A DNA stretch of 55,546 bases. It comes from Verrucomicrobiia bacterium. Lineage in GTDB: Bacteria > Verrucomicrobiota > Verrucomicrobiia > Verrucomicrobiales > DEV007. This document shows positions 1 to 55,546 of this stretch, one piece after another. The stretch covers positions 1-55,546 of the forward strand of contig JAUICH010000035.1 in NCBI GenBank assembly GCA_030427505.1, in the 5' to 3' direction. A program made the position numbers and the translations under genes. Every line of letters begins with the position of its first letter. Positions within the stretch are counted from its first letter, which is position 1. The notes below the pieces were generated by a model. That model was given only the letters and a program-made list of their open reading frames with translations. It was not told the origin of the DNA and did no database searches.

Positions 1-136
1 GCGACCCGGTCTTTTTGGCTGGGGTCTTCGTTGCTCTTCAGTCAGTTATGATTCACATAGCCTCCTTCATCGCGCCTTGCCCCCAGCCAAAAATCCTCGC
101 CAATCACCCATCATCTTAAGGCGGTCAGAGCACTAG
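1..136 (+). mobile_element. Miniature inverted-repeat element, family A, copy 1 (left part outside window)
   Basis: Nearly identical to the right two thirds of the element at 22899-23098. It keeps the internal inverted repeat TTTTTGGCTGGGG (12-24) / CCCCAGCCAAAAA (81-93), a perfect 13-bp pair, and the right terminal repeat that ends in CACTAG at 131-136. The left terminus lies before base 1. It has no coding capacity. The right end is 26 bp before the start codon of the sialidase-like gene, so it may form part of that gene's leader or promoter region; this is inference. Confidence 0.8.
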
Positions 137-11306: not shown

Positions 11307-11517
11307 GGGCCCCAACGGGGCCCGTGTCGATAGCCCAGGGCCATGCCCTGGGACAACGCCGGCTTCACCATTGCGTCCTGTAGGGACGCGCGGAACGGCC
11401 CATTCACCCCAACCGGTTATTCGCTCGCTCCGCCCGCCCTTACAGGGCGGACACTTCCTCTCACCCGGTTCCCAGGGTTGAAACCCTGGGCTATCAGCGG
11501 GCACGCCTTTGGCGTGC
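11307..11517. repeat. Cluster of five tight hairpins
   Basis: Five perfect inverted repeats with loops of two or three bases lie within about 210 bp: GGGCCCC-AAC-GGGGCCC (11307-11323), CCCAGGGC-CAT-GCCCTGGG (11334-11352), CCGCCCT-TAC-AGGGCGG (11434-11450), CCCAGGGTT-GA-AACCCTGGG (11471-11490) and GCACGCC-TTT-GGCGTGC (11501-11517). Two of them share the CCCAGGG/CCCTGGG core that recurs at 30105-30124. None is followed by a T-tract, so they are not ordinary terminators. Confidence 0.85.
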
Positions 11518-22693: not shown

Positions 22694-22898
22694 TGGAGTC
22701 AAAAGAGATGAAATGAATGATCGAGAGCAACACCCGGACTGAGACCGGGCCCCGATCTTCTTTTTTGGGTTACGGACCGCCGAAAGATTTGGAGGCGATT
22801 CAGATTCAGACCGAAGGGGATCAAGGTCGCCAGCGGAGCAACGGCACGCTGATACCGGCGGTGAGAAGCTTCGCACTCGTCGAAACCGGATCTTGTTC
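22694..22898. other. Upstream region of the propeller gene
   Basis: About 200 bp between the propeller gene start and the family A element. It should contain the minus-strand promoter. I see no clear motif in it. Confidence 0.35.
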
Positions 22899-23098
22899 TA
22901 GTGCACTGACCGCCTTAAAATGATGAGCGCTTGGTCTGAACAAAGAGCCGTTGGCGGCAGGGCGGGAACCGGTCTTTTTGGCTGGGGTCTTCGTGGCTCT
23001 TCAGTCAGTTATGATTCACATAGCCTCCTTCATCGCGCCTTGCCCCCAGCCAAAAATCCTCGCCAATCACCCATCATCTTAAGGCGGTCACTGCACTA
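22899..23098 (+). mobile_element. Miniature inverted-repeat element, family A, complete copy
   Basis: About 200 bp bounded by terminal inverted repeats. The left end (from 22898) reads CTAGTGCACTGACCGCCTTA; the right end, read inwards on the other strand from 23099, has the same sequence with one difference over those 20 bases and continues to match for about 8 more. Both ends carry TA inside CTAG (22899-22900 and 23097-23098), as expected for IS630/Tc1-type TA duplication. The interior has a perfect 13-bp inverted repeat, TTTTTGGCTGGGG (22975-22987) / CCCCAGCCAAAAA (23044-23056). No transposase is encoded, so mobilisation in trans is inferred. The interior is almost identical to 1-136. Confidence 0.85.
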
Positions 23099-23313
23099 GG
23101 GTGTAAGGACAAATTCCCGAACCGCCCGGAATAGATGAGAAAGGAAGAAAGAATCAGCGCCGCGAGCGGCGAATTTTCGAAAAACGCGGCCCATTTTCCG
23201 CCTGGCTGCGTTCCGCTTCACTCTATTGGGACCACCCAACGCCATTCAGCGCGCCTTGCCAGCCGAAAAATGGTCTCGCGCCAGGCAGTCCGCCAATTTG
23301 TCCAAACACCCTA
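23097..23313 (+). mobile_element. Miniature inverted-repeat element, family B
   Basis: About 217 bp with terminal repeats TAGGGTGTAAGGACAAATT (23097-23115) and, on the other strand from 23313, TAGGGTGTTTGGACAAATT, flanked by TA. The left TA is the right TA of the family A element, so the two are fused end to end. An imperfect internal hairpin, CCATTTTCCGCCTGGC (23191-23206) / GCCAGCCGAAAAATGG (23258-23273), matches at 14 of 16 positions. Its right arm context (GCGCCTTGCC, CAGCC, AAAAAT) resembles that of family A, which suggests a common origin. It has no coding capacity and ends 68 bp before the glycosidase-like gene. Confidence 0.8.
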
Positions 23314-30068: not shown

Positions 30069-30150
30069 CGGACTTTCAGCCCGCGAATCAATGGGGGCAC
30101 TTTTCCCAGGGATAAATCCCTGGGCTTTGCGCTACAGGGCTTTCAGCCCT
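30069..30150. repeat. Hairpin cluster with CCCAGGG core
   Basis: CCCAGGGAT-AA-ATCCCTGGG (30105-30124) and AGGGCT-TTC-AGCCCT (30136-30150) are perfect, and GCGGACT-TTC-AGCCCGC just before them (about 30069-30085) matches at six of seven pairs. The first is nearly the same as 11471-11490, so this is a dispersed repeat type and not a local accident. Confidence 0.8.
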
Positions 30151-30212
30151 TGAGAGCCAGCCGGGTCCGGAGGCCCCGGAAGAGAATGGGTGGGTTCCGG
30201 ATGTTCGAAAAT

Positions 30213-30410
30213 TAGTGCTCAGACAAATCTAAAGTGACGGGTGCTTGATTGGAGAGAAGAGTAGCGGGCAATAGAACGCGGTACGGTCTTTTTGGCCGGG
30301 GCCTTCGTGGCTCGTCAGTTGGTGATGGTTCACATAGCCGCCTTTCTCGCGCCTTGGCCCCGGCTAAAAATCCTCGCCAATCACCCGTCACTTTAGCTCT
30401 GCCTGTTGGA
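30213..30410 (+). mobile_element. Miniature inverted-repeat element, family A, diverged copy
   Basis: The left end TAGTGCTCAGACAAATCTAA (30213 on) aligns with the left end of 22899-23098. The terminal repeats retain a perfect CTAAAGTGACGGGTG / CACCCGTCACTTTAG core (left about 30229-30243, right about 30381-30395), but the outermost right end is degraded, so the right boundary is approximate. The internal arms TTTTTGGCCGGGGCC (30289-30303) / GGCCCCGGCTAAAAA (30356-30370) pair at 14 of 15 positions with one G-T wobble. They carry a T-A to C-G pair change relative to the other copies. Confidence 0.75.
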
Positions 30411-30453
30411 GACTCGAATCTGAGGGGTTTGCGATCCGTGGCCAAACTCGGGA

Positions 30454-51112: not shown

Positions 51113-54100
51113 TTACAACTCCGTGTCCGCGGGGGTGACGTCCGGCAGATAGACGCTGCGTTCGCCGAAGAGGCGGAGGCTGTTGTATTCGCCGACCGTC
51201 AGGTCGTAGATCATGTAGGTTTCGTAGTTGTACCGCTGCCGCCGGAAGGGGCTCTGTTCTTCTTCACTCTCGTCTCCTTCCTCCTGGTCGTCTTCGACGG
51301 GGCGGTCGCCCTGGATATTGGCGGCGAGGAAGGTGTTTTCCTTCCGGATGAAGCTGTCGTAGATGCTGAGGAACAAGAAGGGCGAGTAGTCGAACGGCGT
51401 GGTGGGCGTTACGGCGATGGGGGTAACGATCTCTTCCGGGAATACCACGTCGATAATTTCCTCCGGAATGAGGATGACGTTGCCGCCGTCATCGCCGGGC
51501 AAGCCCGCGCCGCCGCTGCCGTCGAGGGCGGCGACTTCCTCAATGGCGTCGTAGTAGAAGGTGTACTGTCCGCCACCGCTGACGCTGTTGGAGCCGTTGT
51601 AGTCCGTGGTGCCCGCGCCGAGGTCGCCGGCGGTGAAGCCGGTGAGGTTCTCGAAGCCACCGGGATCGTCCACCATGGCGGCCGAGCCGATGGCGAAGGC
51701 GGAGGAACCGGAGATGGGGGAGTCTCCATTGTTATCCCACCAGAGATCCGGCTGGAGGTAGATCTCGTCCGCGCGCTGGAAGGCGGCCTGGACGCCGAGG
51801 ACATCCGAGGACGGCATGGCGAAGTCGTCCGGCGTGCCCACATAGGTGGCGGTGGTCTCGTTGAGACGGGTGCCGGTGCCGAGCAGGTTGCTGGAACGTT
51901 GCGGCACGTAGAAGCGCAGTTCCGAGCCGCCGCCGAAGAGGCCGCTGGTGAAGACGGCGCCGTTGGTGGCGGTCAGGGTGCCATCCCCCCCGTAGAAGGG
52001 ATTGTTGCGGCTGACGCCAACGTAGGTATTTCCGCTCAGGTAGATGGCTGAGCTGCCGTTGTCCGTGGTGAAGGGGTCCACATGGCCGACGAGGGAGTGG
52101 TCGAAGGACGCGCTGCCGCCCACGGCGATGGTGATGTCCCCCTCGCGCAAGCCGAAGCCGGAGTCGGTGGGGGTGTCGCGCATCCAGTCGCCATTGCCGA
52201 TCTGGACGCCGTTGTCGTTGATGCTGGTGTCGTCGCTGTCTTCGATGGTCAGATCGTTCCGCACCCGGATGTTGATGTCTCCGCTGTGCTGGCCATCCAC
52301 TTGGGGACCGCCGTTCCCGATCTGGACGACGGAGCCGGTGTGGGGCTTGGTGACGGGATCTTCGGTCGTTGCGCCGGTGATGTTCAGGTCATTGCCGACG
52401 ATGACGGTGATGTCCCCGGAGAAGTTGCCGGGCTCGATGAAGCCGCCGTTTCCGATGCGGACCAGAGAGCCGAAGGTGCCGACGGGTTGATCGTTGCCAT
52501 CGATCTTGGAGACCTGGGTGAAGGAGGGACCCTCCAGGGTCAGGTCGTTTCCGGTAATGACTACGATGTCGCCGCTGCTGCCGGCGCCGTCCTGGCGGTA
52601 ACCGCCGTGGCCGATCATGGCCTGGGCGCCTTCCACCTGGAGGCCGATGGCGAGGTCGGAGGGGTCCTGGACCCAGGCGCCCTGGGTGCCGATGAGGCTG
52701 ATGTCGTTCCCGGCGGTCACGCTGATGTTGCCGGTATTGATGCCGTCGTCATTGCCGTTGCCCCAGGTGCCGTGGCCGACCTGGGCCATGGAGCCGTAGC
52801 GGGCTTTGCCCGCGCGGATCTCGATGTTGTTGCCGGCGAGCAGGGTGATGTTGCCGGTGGAGTTGACGTTGTCATTGTCGCGGAAACCGCCGTGACCGAT
52901 CTTGACGCCATTGTCTTCGGCGACCTGGCCGGTGCCGGTGGTGGGGGAGAGGTCCACCGAGTTGGTGGCGGGAGCGAAGTCCGCGTTCAGAATGATGTCT
53001 CCGTTGGTGGCTTCCACGTAGATGTCGCCCTCGGCGTTGAAGTTGTCGTCATTGACCTGGCCGAGGTGACCGATGCCGGTGGAATAGCCCCGGTAGTCGC
53101 CATTTTGCATGGTGATGGAGCCGTCGGCGACGACGGTGATGTTACCGTTCTTGTTGCCGCCGTCGCGGTTTTGGGAGGCTCCGGTGGAGTAGGTATCCGA
53201 GTTGTAACCTCCGTGACCGATCTGGGTGAAGGCCCAGCGGCGGTCGATGGTGTCGCCCGGGGCGTTACCGCCGGCTTCGTCCTGGTCGCCCACGCTGGCC
53301 TGGCCGGAGGGCATGTGGTTCATGTTGATGTCGCCGTCGACGTTGACGGTGATGTTTGCCGAGCCGTTGTAGGTGGGACCGCCCAGGGGGCGCTGGTAGG
53401 TGCCGCCGACCTGGCCGAAGGACTGGTCGCCGCCGTGGCCGATCATGACGAAGTGGCTGCGGGTGGGACCGGCGGTCATGTTCAGGTCCCCGTCCGTCAC
53501 GGTGACGCTGATGTCCCCGGCCTTGAACTGGTTGCGGGTGTCGAAGCCGCCGTGACCGATCATGGCATAGGAGAAGCGGGTGACGTTGGCGTTCCGGCCA
53601 ATGTCGATGGCGTCCGCGCCGCCGATGATGGTCAGGCCCCCGTTGGCGTTGACCGTGATGTCGCCGGTGATGAAGTCCGAATTGTCCTGATGATTGATAC
53701 CGCCGTGGCCGATCTGAGCGGGCGAGTAGATGAGGTTACCGGCCACGAGGCTGATGGGGCCGTTCGGGGCGTCCACGGTGATGTCCCCCGCCATATTCTG
53801 GCGCTGGAAGCGGACGCCGGTGGAGCCGTGACCGATACGGACAAAGGCCCGGCCGCGCTCGCTTCCTTCGAGGGTGGTGTAGCTACCACCGCGCAGGTCT
53901 ATCCCGCCCGTGCCGAGGGCGGTGACATTGACGTTACCGAACAGGTTGTTCTCGATGAAGGAACCGCGGCCCGCGTTGCGGAGAGAGCCGGTATTGAAGT
54001 CCGTGGACTGCTGGTTGGTGCCCACGCCGTCGCCGTTGAAAAAGCGGATCTGGGGGTCTCCGGTGGTGGAGGTTTCGTAGGCGGGGTCCAGGGTGTTGTG

Positions 54101-55546
54101 ACCGATGGCGGCGTAGTTTCCCCAGCCTTGGCCGCCGCGGATGTCAATGTCGCCGCCGGCGTCCACGGTGATGTTCGCGTCCGCGGTGCCGAACTGGCCG
54201 CGGCCGAGGTGGCCGATCTGGGCCATGGCGTTACCGCCGGTGGGGGCGGCGTAAATCTGGACGATGCCGGAGGCCTCCGTGGGCAGACCGGTATCCGAAT
54301 TGATGCCGGCGAGGATGGTGATGTCGCCCTCGACATCAGCGAGGCGGCCGATGGAGCCGCCCTGGCGGCCGTCGGAGGCCCAGTTGATGGAGCGGGGGGC
54401 GTTGTTGGCGCGGTTGGCGTCGGACCAGTTGGTGCGGCCGCCGTTGGTGACCAGAGTGTTTTCGCCGTTCACGCCGCCATGACCGATCTGGGTGTAGCCG
54501 ATGTTTCCATCTTCGGACTGGAGGAGGACGGCGCCCTTGGTGTGGACGGTGATTTCGCCGGTGGCGCCGTGCTCAGGCATCTCGTCGCCCATGTCGTCGG
54601 TGGGGTCGTCGAGTTCCCGCCACCACCAGTTGCCGGTGACGGCGTCCATCTTGTGGTCGTTGAAGGGGACGAAGGTGTAAGCTTCGTCGCCATTGTCCGG
54701 GATGCCGTCGGGATCGTAGTAGAGTTCGCCGTCCACGGAACTGGAGACCGTGGTGCCGAAGTGGGTCTCGCCGTCGTCGTCCAGCTTGGAAACGAGGCGG
54801 TCGTCGTAGATGGCGGTGTAGGTTTCGCCATTGTTGGGTTCGGCGTCCTTGGTGAAGGCGACTTCCACGCCCAGATCGCCCCCGTCGATGGTGGAGGTGA
54901 AGGTGATTTCACCGGTGGCGTAGTTGATGGAGCCCACGTTGTTGAGGCTGCCGTCCTGAAGGTTACCCGAACCGTCATCCAGATAGACGATGGGGGTGCC
55001 GTTGGGATCGACCGTGACGGCGACCGAGCCGGCCACGAGGTTGGTGAAGCCCACGCCCGCGGTGCCGGAGCCGGTCTGCGCGGCGGTGTCGAAGGCCGCG
55101 GAGGTGTAGCCTTCGCCGAAGACTTCGCCGACCTGGAGGCCCAGCACCGTTTCATTGCTGCCGCCGCCGCCATAGTCAATCCGGCCGGAGGCTACGTAAA
55201 CGGCGCCGGTGTCGCGGAAGCCGAGGTGGGCGTGGCGGCGGGTGCCGCCAGAAGAGCCGGTCAGCAGGAGGTTGCGGGCGGCCACGTTGGTGTCGCCATA
55301 GCGGCTGCCGACTTCCACATGGCGGCCGTTGCCGAGGTCATTGATGTAAACCGTGCCGTTGGTGCCATTCCCGTAAGCGGTGGGATCGGCGAAGATGGCG
55401 GCCATGGCGCCTTCGGGATCGTTCGAACTGAGTTCGGTGAAACCAGTGGTGCCGTCCCAGCCAGCCGCCAGGTTGACGGAGCCGCTGCCCGCGTTGCGGA
55501 CGTGGGTGAGGAGGGTGATGTCGCCCTCCGCGAAGAGGCCGAAGTC
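51113..55546 (-). CDS. Very large IGHGG-repeat surface protein (N-terminal part beyond window)
   Basis: The frame stays open through base 55546, so at least 1477 residues are present and the start is outside the window; the ATG at 55405 is internal. The middle consists of about 15 imperfect repeats of 35-60 residues with the pattern (A/V)-x-IG-(H/N)-GG, a D/N/G-rich loop, then GDI-x-V and a hydrophobic strand. The pattern resembles right-handed beta-helix passenger domains of filamentous-haemagglutinin-like proteins. The C-terminal 350 residues carry an acidic stretch (EDDQEEGDESEEEQ) and end FGERSVYLPDVTPADTEL, with no autotransporter barrel. Adhesin or cell-surface fibre is the likely role. 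Confidence 0.85.
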   Translation of the reverse strand, partial: DFGLFAEGDITLLTHVRNAGSGSVNLAAGWDGTTGFTELSSNDPEGAMAAIFADPTAYGNGTNGTVYINDLGNGRHVEVGSRYGDTNVAARNLLLTGSSGGTRRHAHLGFRDTGAVYVASGRIDYGGGGSNETVLGLQVGEVFGEGYTSAAFDTAAQTGSGTAGVGFTNLVAGSVAVTVDPNGTPIVYLDDGSGNLQDGSLNNVGSINYATGEITFTSTIDGGDLGVEVAFTKDAEPNNGETYTAIYDDRLVSKLDDDGETHFGTTVSSSVDGELYYDPDGIPDNGDEAYTFVPFNDHKMDAVTGNWWWRELDDPTDDMGDEMPEHGATGEITVHTKGAVLLQSEDGNIGYTQIGHGGVNGENTLVTNGGRTNWSDANRANNAPRSINWASDGRQGGSIGRLADVEGDITILAGINSDTGLPTEASGIVQIYAAPTGGNAMAQIGHLGRGQFGTADANITVDAGGDIDIRGGQGWGNYAAIGHNTLDPAYETSTTGDPQIRFFNGDGVGTNQQSTDFNTGSLRNAGRGSFIENNLFGNVNVTALGTGGIDLRGGSYTTLEGSERGRAFVRIGHGSTGVRFQRQNMAGDITVDAPNGPISLVAGNLIYSPAQIGHGGINHQDNSDFITGDITVNANGGLTIIGGADAIDIGRNANVTRFSYAMIGHGGFDTRNQFKAGDISVTVTDGDLNMTAGPTRSHFVMIGHGGDQSFGQVGGTYQRPLGGPTYNGSANITVNVDGDINMNHMPSGQASVGDQDEAGGNAPGDTIDRRWAFTQIGHGGYNSDTYSTGASQNRDGGNKNGNITVVADGSITMQNGDYRGYSTGIGHLGQVNDDNFNAEGDIYVEATNGDIILNADFAPATNSVDLSPTTGTGQVAEDNGVKIGHGGFRDNDNVNSTGNITLLAGNNIEIRAGKARYGSMAQVGHGTWGNGNDDGINTGNISVTAGNDISLIGTQGAWVQDPSDLAIGLQVEGAQAMIGHGGYRQDGAGSSGDIVVITGNDLTLEGPSFTQVSKIDGNDQPVGTFGSLVRIGNGGFIEPGNFSGDITVIVGNDLNITGATTEDPVTKPHTGSVVQIGNGGPQVDGQHSGDINIRVRNDLTIEDSDDTSINDNGVQIGNGDWMRDTPTDSGFGLREGDITIAVGGSASFDHSLVGHVDPFTTDNGSSAIYLSGNTYVGVSRNNPFYGGDGTLTATNGAVFTSGLFGGGSELRFYVPQRSSNLLGTGTRLNETTATYVGTPDDFAMPSSDVLGVQAAFQRADEIYLQPDLWWDNNGDSPISGSSAFAIGSAAMVDDPGGFENLTGFTAGDLGAGTTDYNGSNSVSGGGQYTFYYDAIEEVAALDGSGGAGLPGDDGGNVILIPEEIIDVVFPEEIVTPIAVTPTTPFDYSPFLFLSIYDSFIRKENTFLAANIQGDRPVEDDQEEGDESEEEQSPFRRQRYNYETYMIYDLTVGEYNSLRLFGERSVYLPDVTPADTEL
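52190..54500 (-). repeat. Array of about 15 IGHGG-type coding repeats
   Basis: Within the large gene, the codons for IGHGG/IGNGG/IGHLG recur at irregular intervals of roughly 110-190 bp. On the plus strand they appear as the recurring string CCGCC(G/A)TG(A/G)CCGATC. Individual units differ in loop length and sequence, so they are old duplications and not recent tandem copies. Confidence 0.85.

Follow-up and report, generated by a model that had tools for sequence, protein, structure and literature searches.

Introduction

Bacterial MITEs (NEMIS, ERIC, RUP, Nezha and others) are presented, in the sections of one account that treat them, as elements of 70-300 bp with terminal inverted repeats, no coding capacity and many copies, which can be mobilised in trans and are often transcribed and folded within mRNA (PMC3733652). 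The same sections give REPs a length of 20-40 bp and a tag, GTAG or CGTC, and link REPs and REPINs to the RAYT or TIRYT tyrosine transposases (PMC3733652). CIR repeats, found in Caulobacter and other alphaproteobacteria, are outlined as intergenic, about 110 bp long and built of two conserved RNA arms with GANTC at the terminal loop (PMC2229807). IStrons, as summarised in PMC4227781, combine a group I intron with an insertion sequence, and this is said to render their insertions harmless.

The window analysed here is a stretch of 55,546 nucleotides of a Verrucomicrobiia bacterium, and is contig 55 of a genome (G000) of 6.4 Mb in 56 contigs. An earlier reading of the letters alone, referred to below as the sequence-only reading, had pointed to a base-pair change between copies of a repeated hairpin and had concluded that folding, as DNA or RNA, is kept by selection. 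Comparison of copies within and between genomes shows this hairpin to be the core of non-autonomous, MITE-like elements of about 200 bp.

Results

The three copies of the hairpin element that belong to family A have a stretch of 134 nt in common, over which the second copy is 97% and the third 75% identical to the first (Table 1). The arms read TTTTTGGCTGGGG/CCCCAGCCAAAAA at 12-24/81-93 and at 22975-22987/23044-23056, and TTTTTGGCCGGGG/CCCCGGCTAAAAA at 30289-30301/30358-30370 in the diverged copy. Read directly, the letters bear out the change that had been noticed at the middle pair, where C-G replaces T-A. The extra pair reported at the base of the loop is there as well: 30302/30357 is C-G in the diverged copy and T.C in the other two window copies, and it stacks on a C-G that every one of the 35 rows in the genomic alignment shares. 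The drift described for the flanking bases was also recovered, as one flanking pair that has gone from G-C to G.T in the diverged copy and in one other of the 35. Two of the three window hairpins (22966-23082 and 30280-30396) were folded against shuffles, and each folded better than all 200 of them (z -3.5 and -4.1).

Table 1. Elements, cores and stems in the window. R1 and R2 are covariance models; the source alignment of R2 contained both A and B core rows.
Feature	Position	Strand	Remarks
Contig-start A1-type copy, cut by the contig start	3..136	-	97% identity to the full copy
Core of the contig-start A1 copy	3-119	-	R2 3.2e-28
Full-length A1-type element, MITE-like, 202 bp	22898..23099	-	CTAG-bounded; the strand given is the folding, purine-rich one
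A1 core hairpin	22966..23082	-	R2 match 3.1e-27, reported on +
A1 core stems	stem 1 22975-22989/23042-23056; stem 2 23007-23013/23019-23025	-
Family B element	23096..23313	-	aligned over 218 nt to further copies
Family B core, homologous to the A core by sequence comparison	23183..23298	-	R2 8.4e-18 in the window
Diverged A2-type element, right end decayed	30212..30412	-	75% to the A1 copy
Core of the diverged A2 copy	30280..30396	-	R2 3.3e-25; conserved GA-rich internal loop between the stems
Diverged A2 core stems	stem 1 30289-30303/30356-30370; stem 2 30321-30327/30333-30339	-

The full-length A1 element (ends CTAGTGCACTGACCGCC.../...GGTCACTGCACTAG) displays the traits of a MITE: it is short, its terminal inverted repeats of 37 nt (22898-22934 and 23063-23099) are 86% complementary, and there are many near-identical copies elsewhere in the genome. 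The diverged A2-type element is 96% identical to two other copies in the genome, and its right end is without the ...CTAG that one copy (L032) retains. The family B element is joined to the A1 element at a common CTAG and has the right end ...ACACCCTAAG; other copies in the genome likewise have A and B meeting at a common CTAG. By model comparison the cores of families A and B are homologous, and R1, which was built from A copies alone, still scores the B core (37.4 bits, E 1.2e-7).

We aligned 46 places in G000, some of them truncated or chimeric. They comprise three subfamilies of A with a common core and different ends, A1 (CTAGTGCWSTGACCGCC), A2 (CTAGTGCTCAGACAAATC) and A3 (CTAGTAGYCCGTCAAT), the diverged window copy being of type A2. 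Among the chimeric elements, an A1 left end is joined to B-like sequence at L066 (935-996) and an A2 end to a B element at L090 (around 2008); at L061 (1-125) an A1 copy is followed by an A3-type end with one CTAG in common. Several contigs begin or end within a copy (C2, C9, C17, C22, C44, C47 and C55 start inside a copy of A), and since the assembly breaks at copies of A the true copy number is uncertain. Nine of 66 copies tested lie within an open reading frame of at least 200 aa. Among the 35 of these 66 that had a gene on both sides, no strand preference toward the neighbouring genes was seen (14 convergent, and 8, 7 and 6 in the other arrangements).

Known RNA families gave no credible match over the cores, either in the window at the gathering thresholds of Rfam or, with Rfam 15, at 17 loci at E up to 1. 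In the latter search only HOTTIP_3 fell on a core (L104, E 0.43, 16 bits against the 50 required), and two microRNA models lay next to the L285 core (E 0.15 and 0.47, well short of their thresholds); we take all three as chance. A group I intron was not matched in the window or at the 17 loci. In the open-licence PMC literature, where absence is no proof, we found no published description of the core, and six 15-letter loop strings returned no paper. The window itself has one Rfam match above threshold, Acido-Lenti-1 RNA (RF01687) at 11471-11516 (+) with 40.4 bits, and a second match to this family just below threshold (34 bits against 37) at 30105-30150 (+), approximately 60 nt from the diverged A2-type element. 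It also contains a very long open frame (51113-55546, -; 1477 aa) that runs off the contig and holds diverged repeats of about 48 nt between 52245 and 54188.

Within the genome, covariation was examined in a core alignment of 35 copies, 30 of them distinct; the remaining 11 of the 46 loci had a contig end in the core, had partly lost the core, or were duplicates. The pair singled out by the sequence-only reading is not private to 30289-30370, as 23 of the 35 copies have T-A there and 12 have C-G. The two states split by subfamily and may go back to one event, and taken alone the change is weak evidence for folding. Both-sided change was found in 3 of the 24 pairs, the two besides the cited pair in one copy each, against 1.1 pairs in shuffles (4 of 500), and these three pairs are suggestive of folding. 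Further pair types were not raised (9 vs 9.9 in shuffles; 495 of 500).

In a wider sample the core has a conserved two-sided internal loop between an outer stem and an inner stem-loop, both of which vary in sequence. We grouped 186 distinct cores into 93 clusters by common 6-mers, and 92 of these were aligned. On the purine-rich strand (minus here) the 92 representatives read stem 1, CRAGGCGCGASGARGGAG, stem 2 with a short loop, GACYGASGAGCAACGMAG, and stem 1 again. With the two strands of the loop facing each other, the oppositions are A.G in 92, G-C in 92, G.A in 92, C.A in 91, G-C in 83 and C-G in 92 of the 92 rows. Tandem GA oppositions occur at 29.71 (GA, 85 rows), 31.70 (AG, 82), 33.68 (GA, 87) and 34.67 (AG, 92); a further G.A at 38.64 (82 of 92) is preceded by G-C in 85 rows and followed by A.G in 61 or C.A in 22. 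Two pairs inside the loop covary over the 92 rows, namely 32-69 (GC 46, CG 30, UA 4) and 35-66 (GC 57, AU 21, GU 9), and in the 87 of 93 clusters that were parsed for this count their mutual information was 0.958 and 0.322 against shuffle maxima of 0.214 and 0.106.

The conservation of the loop should be interpreted with some caution. An expression fixing part of the loop was used to pick all 93 clusters, and 61 of them (60 of the 92 rows) came from loci found with a pattern in which most letters of both loop strands were set, while those facing the covarying letters could vary; because the clusters were chosen in this way, loop conservation is in part imposed, which does not apply to stem covariation. 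The 32 model-found rows also covary at 32-69 (GC 15, CG 7, UA 4) and at 35-66 (GC 13, AU 11, GU 4), and carry the tandem G.A oppositions in 25, 23, 30, 32 and 28 of 32. At the level of predicted structure, the alignments show an internal loop in which Watson-Crick pairs, two of them covarying, alternate with tandem G.A/A.G oppositions.

The stems covary strongly beyond the genome. Across genera (81 distinct rows, in an alignment that was fitted to the structure of the model and from which a few poor or reverse-strand rows were not removed) the covariation score was 0.582, against 0.154 in shuffles and at most 0.128 with slid partners; there were 485 both-sided cells, against 164 in shuffles, and 23 of 24 pairs with both-sided change, against 21.2, a number reached by 40 of 500 shuffles. 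Across phyla, in the 92 diverged representatives, the score was 0.631 against 0.196 in shuffles (0 of 500) and at most 0.229 with slid partners. Here 661 cells were changed on both sides, against 241 in shuffles, 84.4% of cells were paired (slid partners gave 43.2% at most), and 23 pairs were changed on both sides, against 22.4 (180 of 500 shuffles). The bare count of pairs is not clearly above shuffles because nearly every stem pair varies, and the covariation argument consequently rests on the score and on the cells, which are not phylogenetically independent. The covariation over many aligned copies that the sequence-only reading had proposed to look for is hence present, in the approximation used here across genera and phyla. 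Its conclusion that the fold is kept by selection holds for this reason, and not for the reason it gave, since the T-A/C-G change is a difference between subfamilies.

The core is widely distributed. Within the family, R1, the covariance model from the 35 copies in G000, had matches in 18 of 74 genomes (5 of 18 genera). R2, for which 58 matches from 54 chosen sources were used, found the core in 72 of 239 sampled genomes of the order (28 of 48 genera) and in 24 of 387 from the phylum, G000 being counted in each case. Two single-contig genomes carry 6 and 7 cores (G110 and G161). A pattern for the two loop strands retrieved at least 115 stretches, and among the matches listed are Acidobacteria, Desulfobacterales, Elusimicrobia, Chitinophagales, Myxococcales, Planctomycetota, Omnitrophota and Nitrospinota, as well as Sphingomonas sp. 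CFBP 13720 and Aureimonas sp. ME7, whose titles read as those of cultured strains. A match titled Bifidobacterium is on a metagenome bin and may be contamination. Twenty chosen genomes with the loop pattern had 1-109 R2 matches each, the Sphingomonas and Aureimonas genomes 9 each; many loci come from metagenome bins, and this cross-phylum set is one of chosen genomes, not a survey of all phyla. The loop pattern had 0 matches in viral contigs, one Sphingomonas element had none in plasmids, and a string specific to A had none in a scan of genome contigs.

Across these lineages, sequence comparison shows the same core in elements whose terminal repeats differ by lineage. Enough flank for a test of terminal repeats was available in 82 of the 93 clusters, and in 67 of them the repeats were above the 99th percentile of mismatched controls; a simple k-mer comparison, which may separate relatives, sorts these 67 into 58 groups. 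CTAG is present in 19 of the 67 left ends and in 19 of the 67 right ends, compared with 2.1% of background 14-mers. Where the ends alone were compared, the CTAG at either end of A and of B is compatible with a CTAG or a TA target-site duplication. Several elements hold two cores head to head in a REPIN-like manner, seen as adjacent opposite-strand matches (e.g. L183, L206, L243, L249 and L255) when cores were matched in 100 sources, 90 of them loop-pattern loci; an expression meant to set such elements apart recognised just 3 of them, too small a number for a comparison. A REP-type tag beside a hairpin of 20-40 bp was not encountered, the ends being CTAG or other and the hairpin internal.

The ends of family B match those of an element that encodes a 246-aa protein with DUF4096 and DDE_Tnp_1 domains, by its domains an IS5-type transposase, whose open reading frame abuts CTAGGCAGAGTGGACAAATT, the end type of family B. 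Because family B and this element have common ends, we infer that family B is mobilised in trans. Of four PF01609 matches in G000, two carry family B ends (L085 and L086); the other two were rejected as movers of A, their CTAG sites being unlike A ends, and an IS630 transposase was likewise rejected, with 0 PF13358 matches in the genome. In a search for an autonomous A element, the end sequence CTAGTGCWSWGAC had 55 matches. Four places outside known copies (C8, C19, C45 and C51) held no transposase within about 300 nt: three are ends without a core in a stretch of about 300 nt, and in C45 an A2-type end adjoins a B element. Family A had no autonomous partner in G000, as far as the searches with PF13358 and PF01609 and the inspected end-pattern places go.

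Two lines of evidence indicate that one strand of the element folds. First, mismatches in the stems are asymmetric. In a single folded strand G.U or G.T is tolerated better than A.C. Isolated wobbles in stem 1, flanked by Watson-Crick pairs, read on the pyrimidine strand as 71 AC vs 25 GU, i.e. as 71 G.U on the purine strand, and 44 clusters leaned toward A.C on the pyrimidine strand vs 7 in the opposite direction. The 32 model-found clusters behaved alike (pyrimidine orientation, AC 30 vs GU 10; 17 vs 2 clusters). The terminal repeats, used as a control in which symmetry was expected, gave AC 118 vs GU 31 in the pyrimidine orientation (40 vs 13 elements of 67), with a similar lean in their outer, middle and inner thirds (32:6, 33:13 and 53:12). 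As the terminal repeats are asymmetric too, the claim has to be that the whole element folds on one strand, and not the core alone. A cruciform of paired DNA cannot tell G.T from A.C by strand, and the asymmetry thus points to a single folded strand.

Secondly, computed RNA energies favor the purine-rich strand in 57 of 66 elements (median -10.5 kcal/mol), against 28 of 66 adjacent flanking control stretches; the comparison took in 66 of the 67 elements, those over 330 nt being left out. In the window, the purine-rich strand and the other strand reached -101.6 vs -90.5 for A1 and -105.8 vs -81.2 for B, and the decayed A2 copy folded slightly worse on the purine strand (-82.8 vs -85.7). The statistics support selection for folding of the purine-rich strand, as a single strand, along the entire element and its terminal repeats. 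Structured RNA typically tolerates wobbles and has G.A-rich loops. On account of these two features, and because the one transposase with matching ends is a DDE enzyme, the selected fold is most likely RNA. The earlier wording "as DNA or RNA" can accordingly be narrowed to one single strand, most simply RNA, with single-stranded DNA as the remaining alternative.

Discussion

We consider it rather probable that the elements are mobilised in trans and that their RNA fold is kept since it aids the persistence of the element. The folded RNA would be made upon transcription of the element, alone or by read-through, and host transposases would move the element in trans, for family B in G000 an IS5-type (DUF4096/DDE) enzyme with the same ends. 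How the fold might help is a matter for conjecture. The GA-rich loop could bind a widespread host RNA-binding or RNA-processing factor; transcripts carrying an insertion might then be stabilised or processed, so that insertions are tolerated, or the bound RNA might alternatively help the element to capture a transposase.

The purine-rich strand could instead fold as single-stranded DNA during replication, transfer or transposition, its hairpin being recognised by a protein in the way HUH/Y1 enzymes recognise REP hairpins. G.T mismatches are tolerated in DNA as well, and such folding would also favor G.T over A.C; moreover, the asymmetry includes the terminal repeats, the whole-element DNA folds of two window elements are better than all 200 shuffles, and all 22 genomes examined for Y1 transposases have them. 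Their presence is uninformative, however, being the same with or without cores: five genomes where no hairpin was found have Y1 genes too, one of them (G003) as many as 36. None of the four Y1 matches in G000 lies beside a core by the listed coordinates, the nearest listed pair being about 6 kb apart, and a RAYT/Y1 mover was rejected there. The sole transposase with matching ends is the IS5-type DDE enzyme, and enzymes of this type are not known to act on single-stranded substrates. We regard a fold of single-stranded DNA as unlikely. Nor is it at all probable that the arms are complementary only because one arm is copied from the other by template switching or gene conversion, combined with the demand of a transposase for matching ends, while folding goes unselected. 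The terminal repeats do change in concert between A1, A2 and A3, which needs no folding, but arm copying predicts perfect arms and not G.A oppositions at fixed places between covarying pairs, and it predicts neither strand-asymmetric mismatches nor single covarying pairs in the loop. This explanation is already disfavoured.

The asymmetry of mismatches could also reflect a mutational strand bias, such as cytosine deamination on one exposed strand, and not selection for G.U, and it does span the whole element, terminal repeats included. Recent singletons from three groups run in the opposite direction, with 5 purine-strand C>T vs 13 the other way (p 0.16), as do rare variants in the A1 copies (5 vs 11), although both numbers are small and the two counts overlap in copies; we rate such a bias as a quite improbable source. 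The least credible explanation in our view is that of an ordinary MITE family whose inner hairpin is a functionless by-product of palindromic elements. Number and dispersal fit it, and in the 22 A1 copies the arms of these recent insertions differ from the consensus at 1.05% and 1.75% of sites and are thus not slower than the loop (1.43%). Arms and loop nevertheless both show lower divergence than either the terminal repeats (2.6% and 3.1%) or the left spacer (9.2%). Moreover, the core is conserved and its stems covary across genera and phyla while the terminal repeats differ, and isolates and single-contig genomes hold several copies, which counters chance or contamination.

Beyond the preferred reading of a selected RNA fold, a bolder proposal can be entertained tentatively, and we hold it to be doubtful. 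A structured-RNA family that spans phyla would be the cargo of bacterial mini-transposons and would swap its terminal repeats, and hence its transposase hosts, as a DNA-transposon counterpart of SINEs. The GA-rich loop might then keep a universal host factor, or else the translation machinery, close to the element, thereby helping it to capture otherwise cis-acting transposases, or rendering its insertions tolerable. The usual view of bacterial MITEs is that of deletion leftovers which are defined by their ends. If one core of conserved fold indeed occurs with dozens of ends in distant phyla, then the interior of an element can be what evolution keeps, a widespread class of structured RNA (or single-stranded DNA) without an Rfam match would be added, and the persistence of non-autonomous bacterial elements would become a testable question.

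Comparison with the described systems, as far as the accounts cited treat them, places these elements near several of them. They are like IStrons in that a DNA transposon carries a structured RNA module, and differ in that no group I intron was matched and splicing is not proposed (PMC4227781). With CIR they have in common a dispersed repeat with conserved RNA-like arms, and there is no GANTC in the core consensus, a distinction drawn from the CIR description alone (PMC2229807). Like REP and REPIN they are dispersed stem-loops, some of them inverted dimers; unlike REPs, they have cores of about 80 nt in elements of about 200 bp, with terminal repeats of 20-35 nt that are often CTAG-bounded (PMC3733652). 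In size, terminal inverted repeats and copy number they resemble MITEs, but whereas the named MITEs are described there group by group, one structured core is found here with dozens of different ends and across phyla (PMC3733652).
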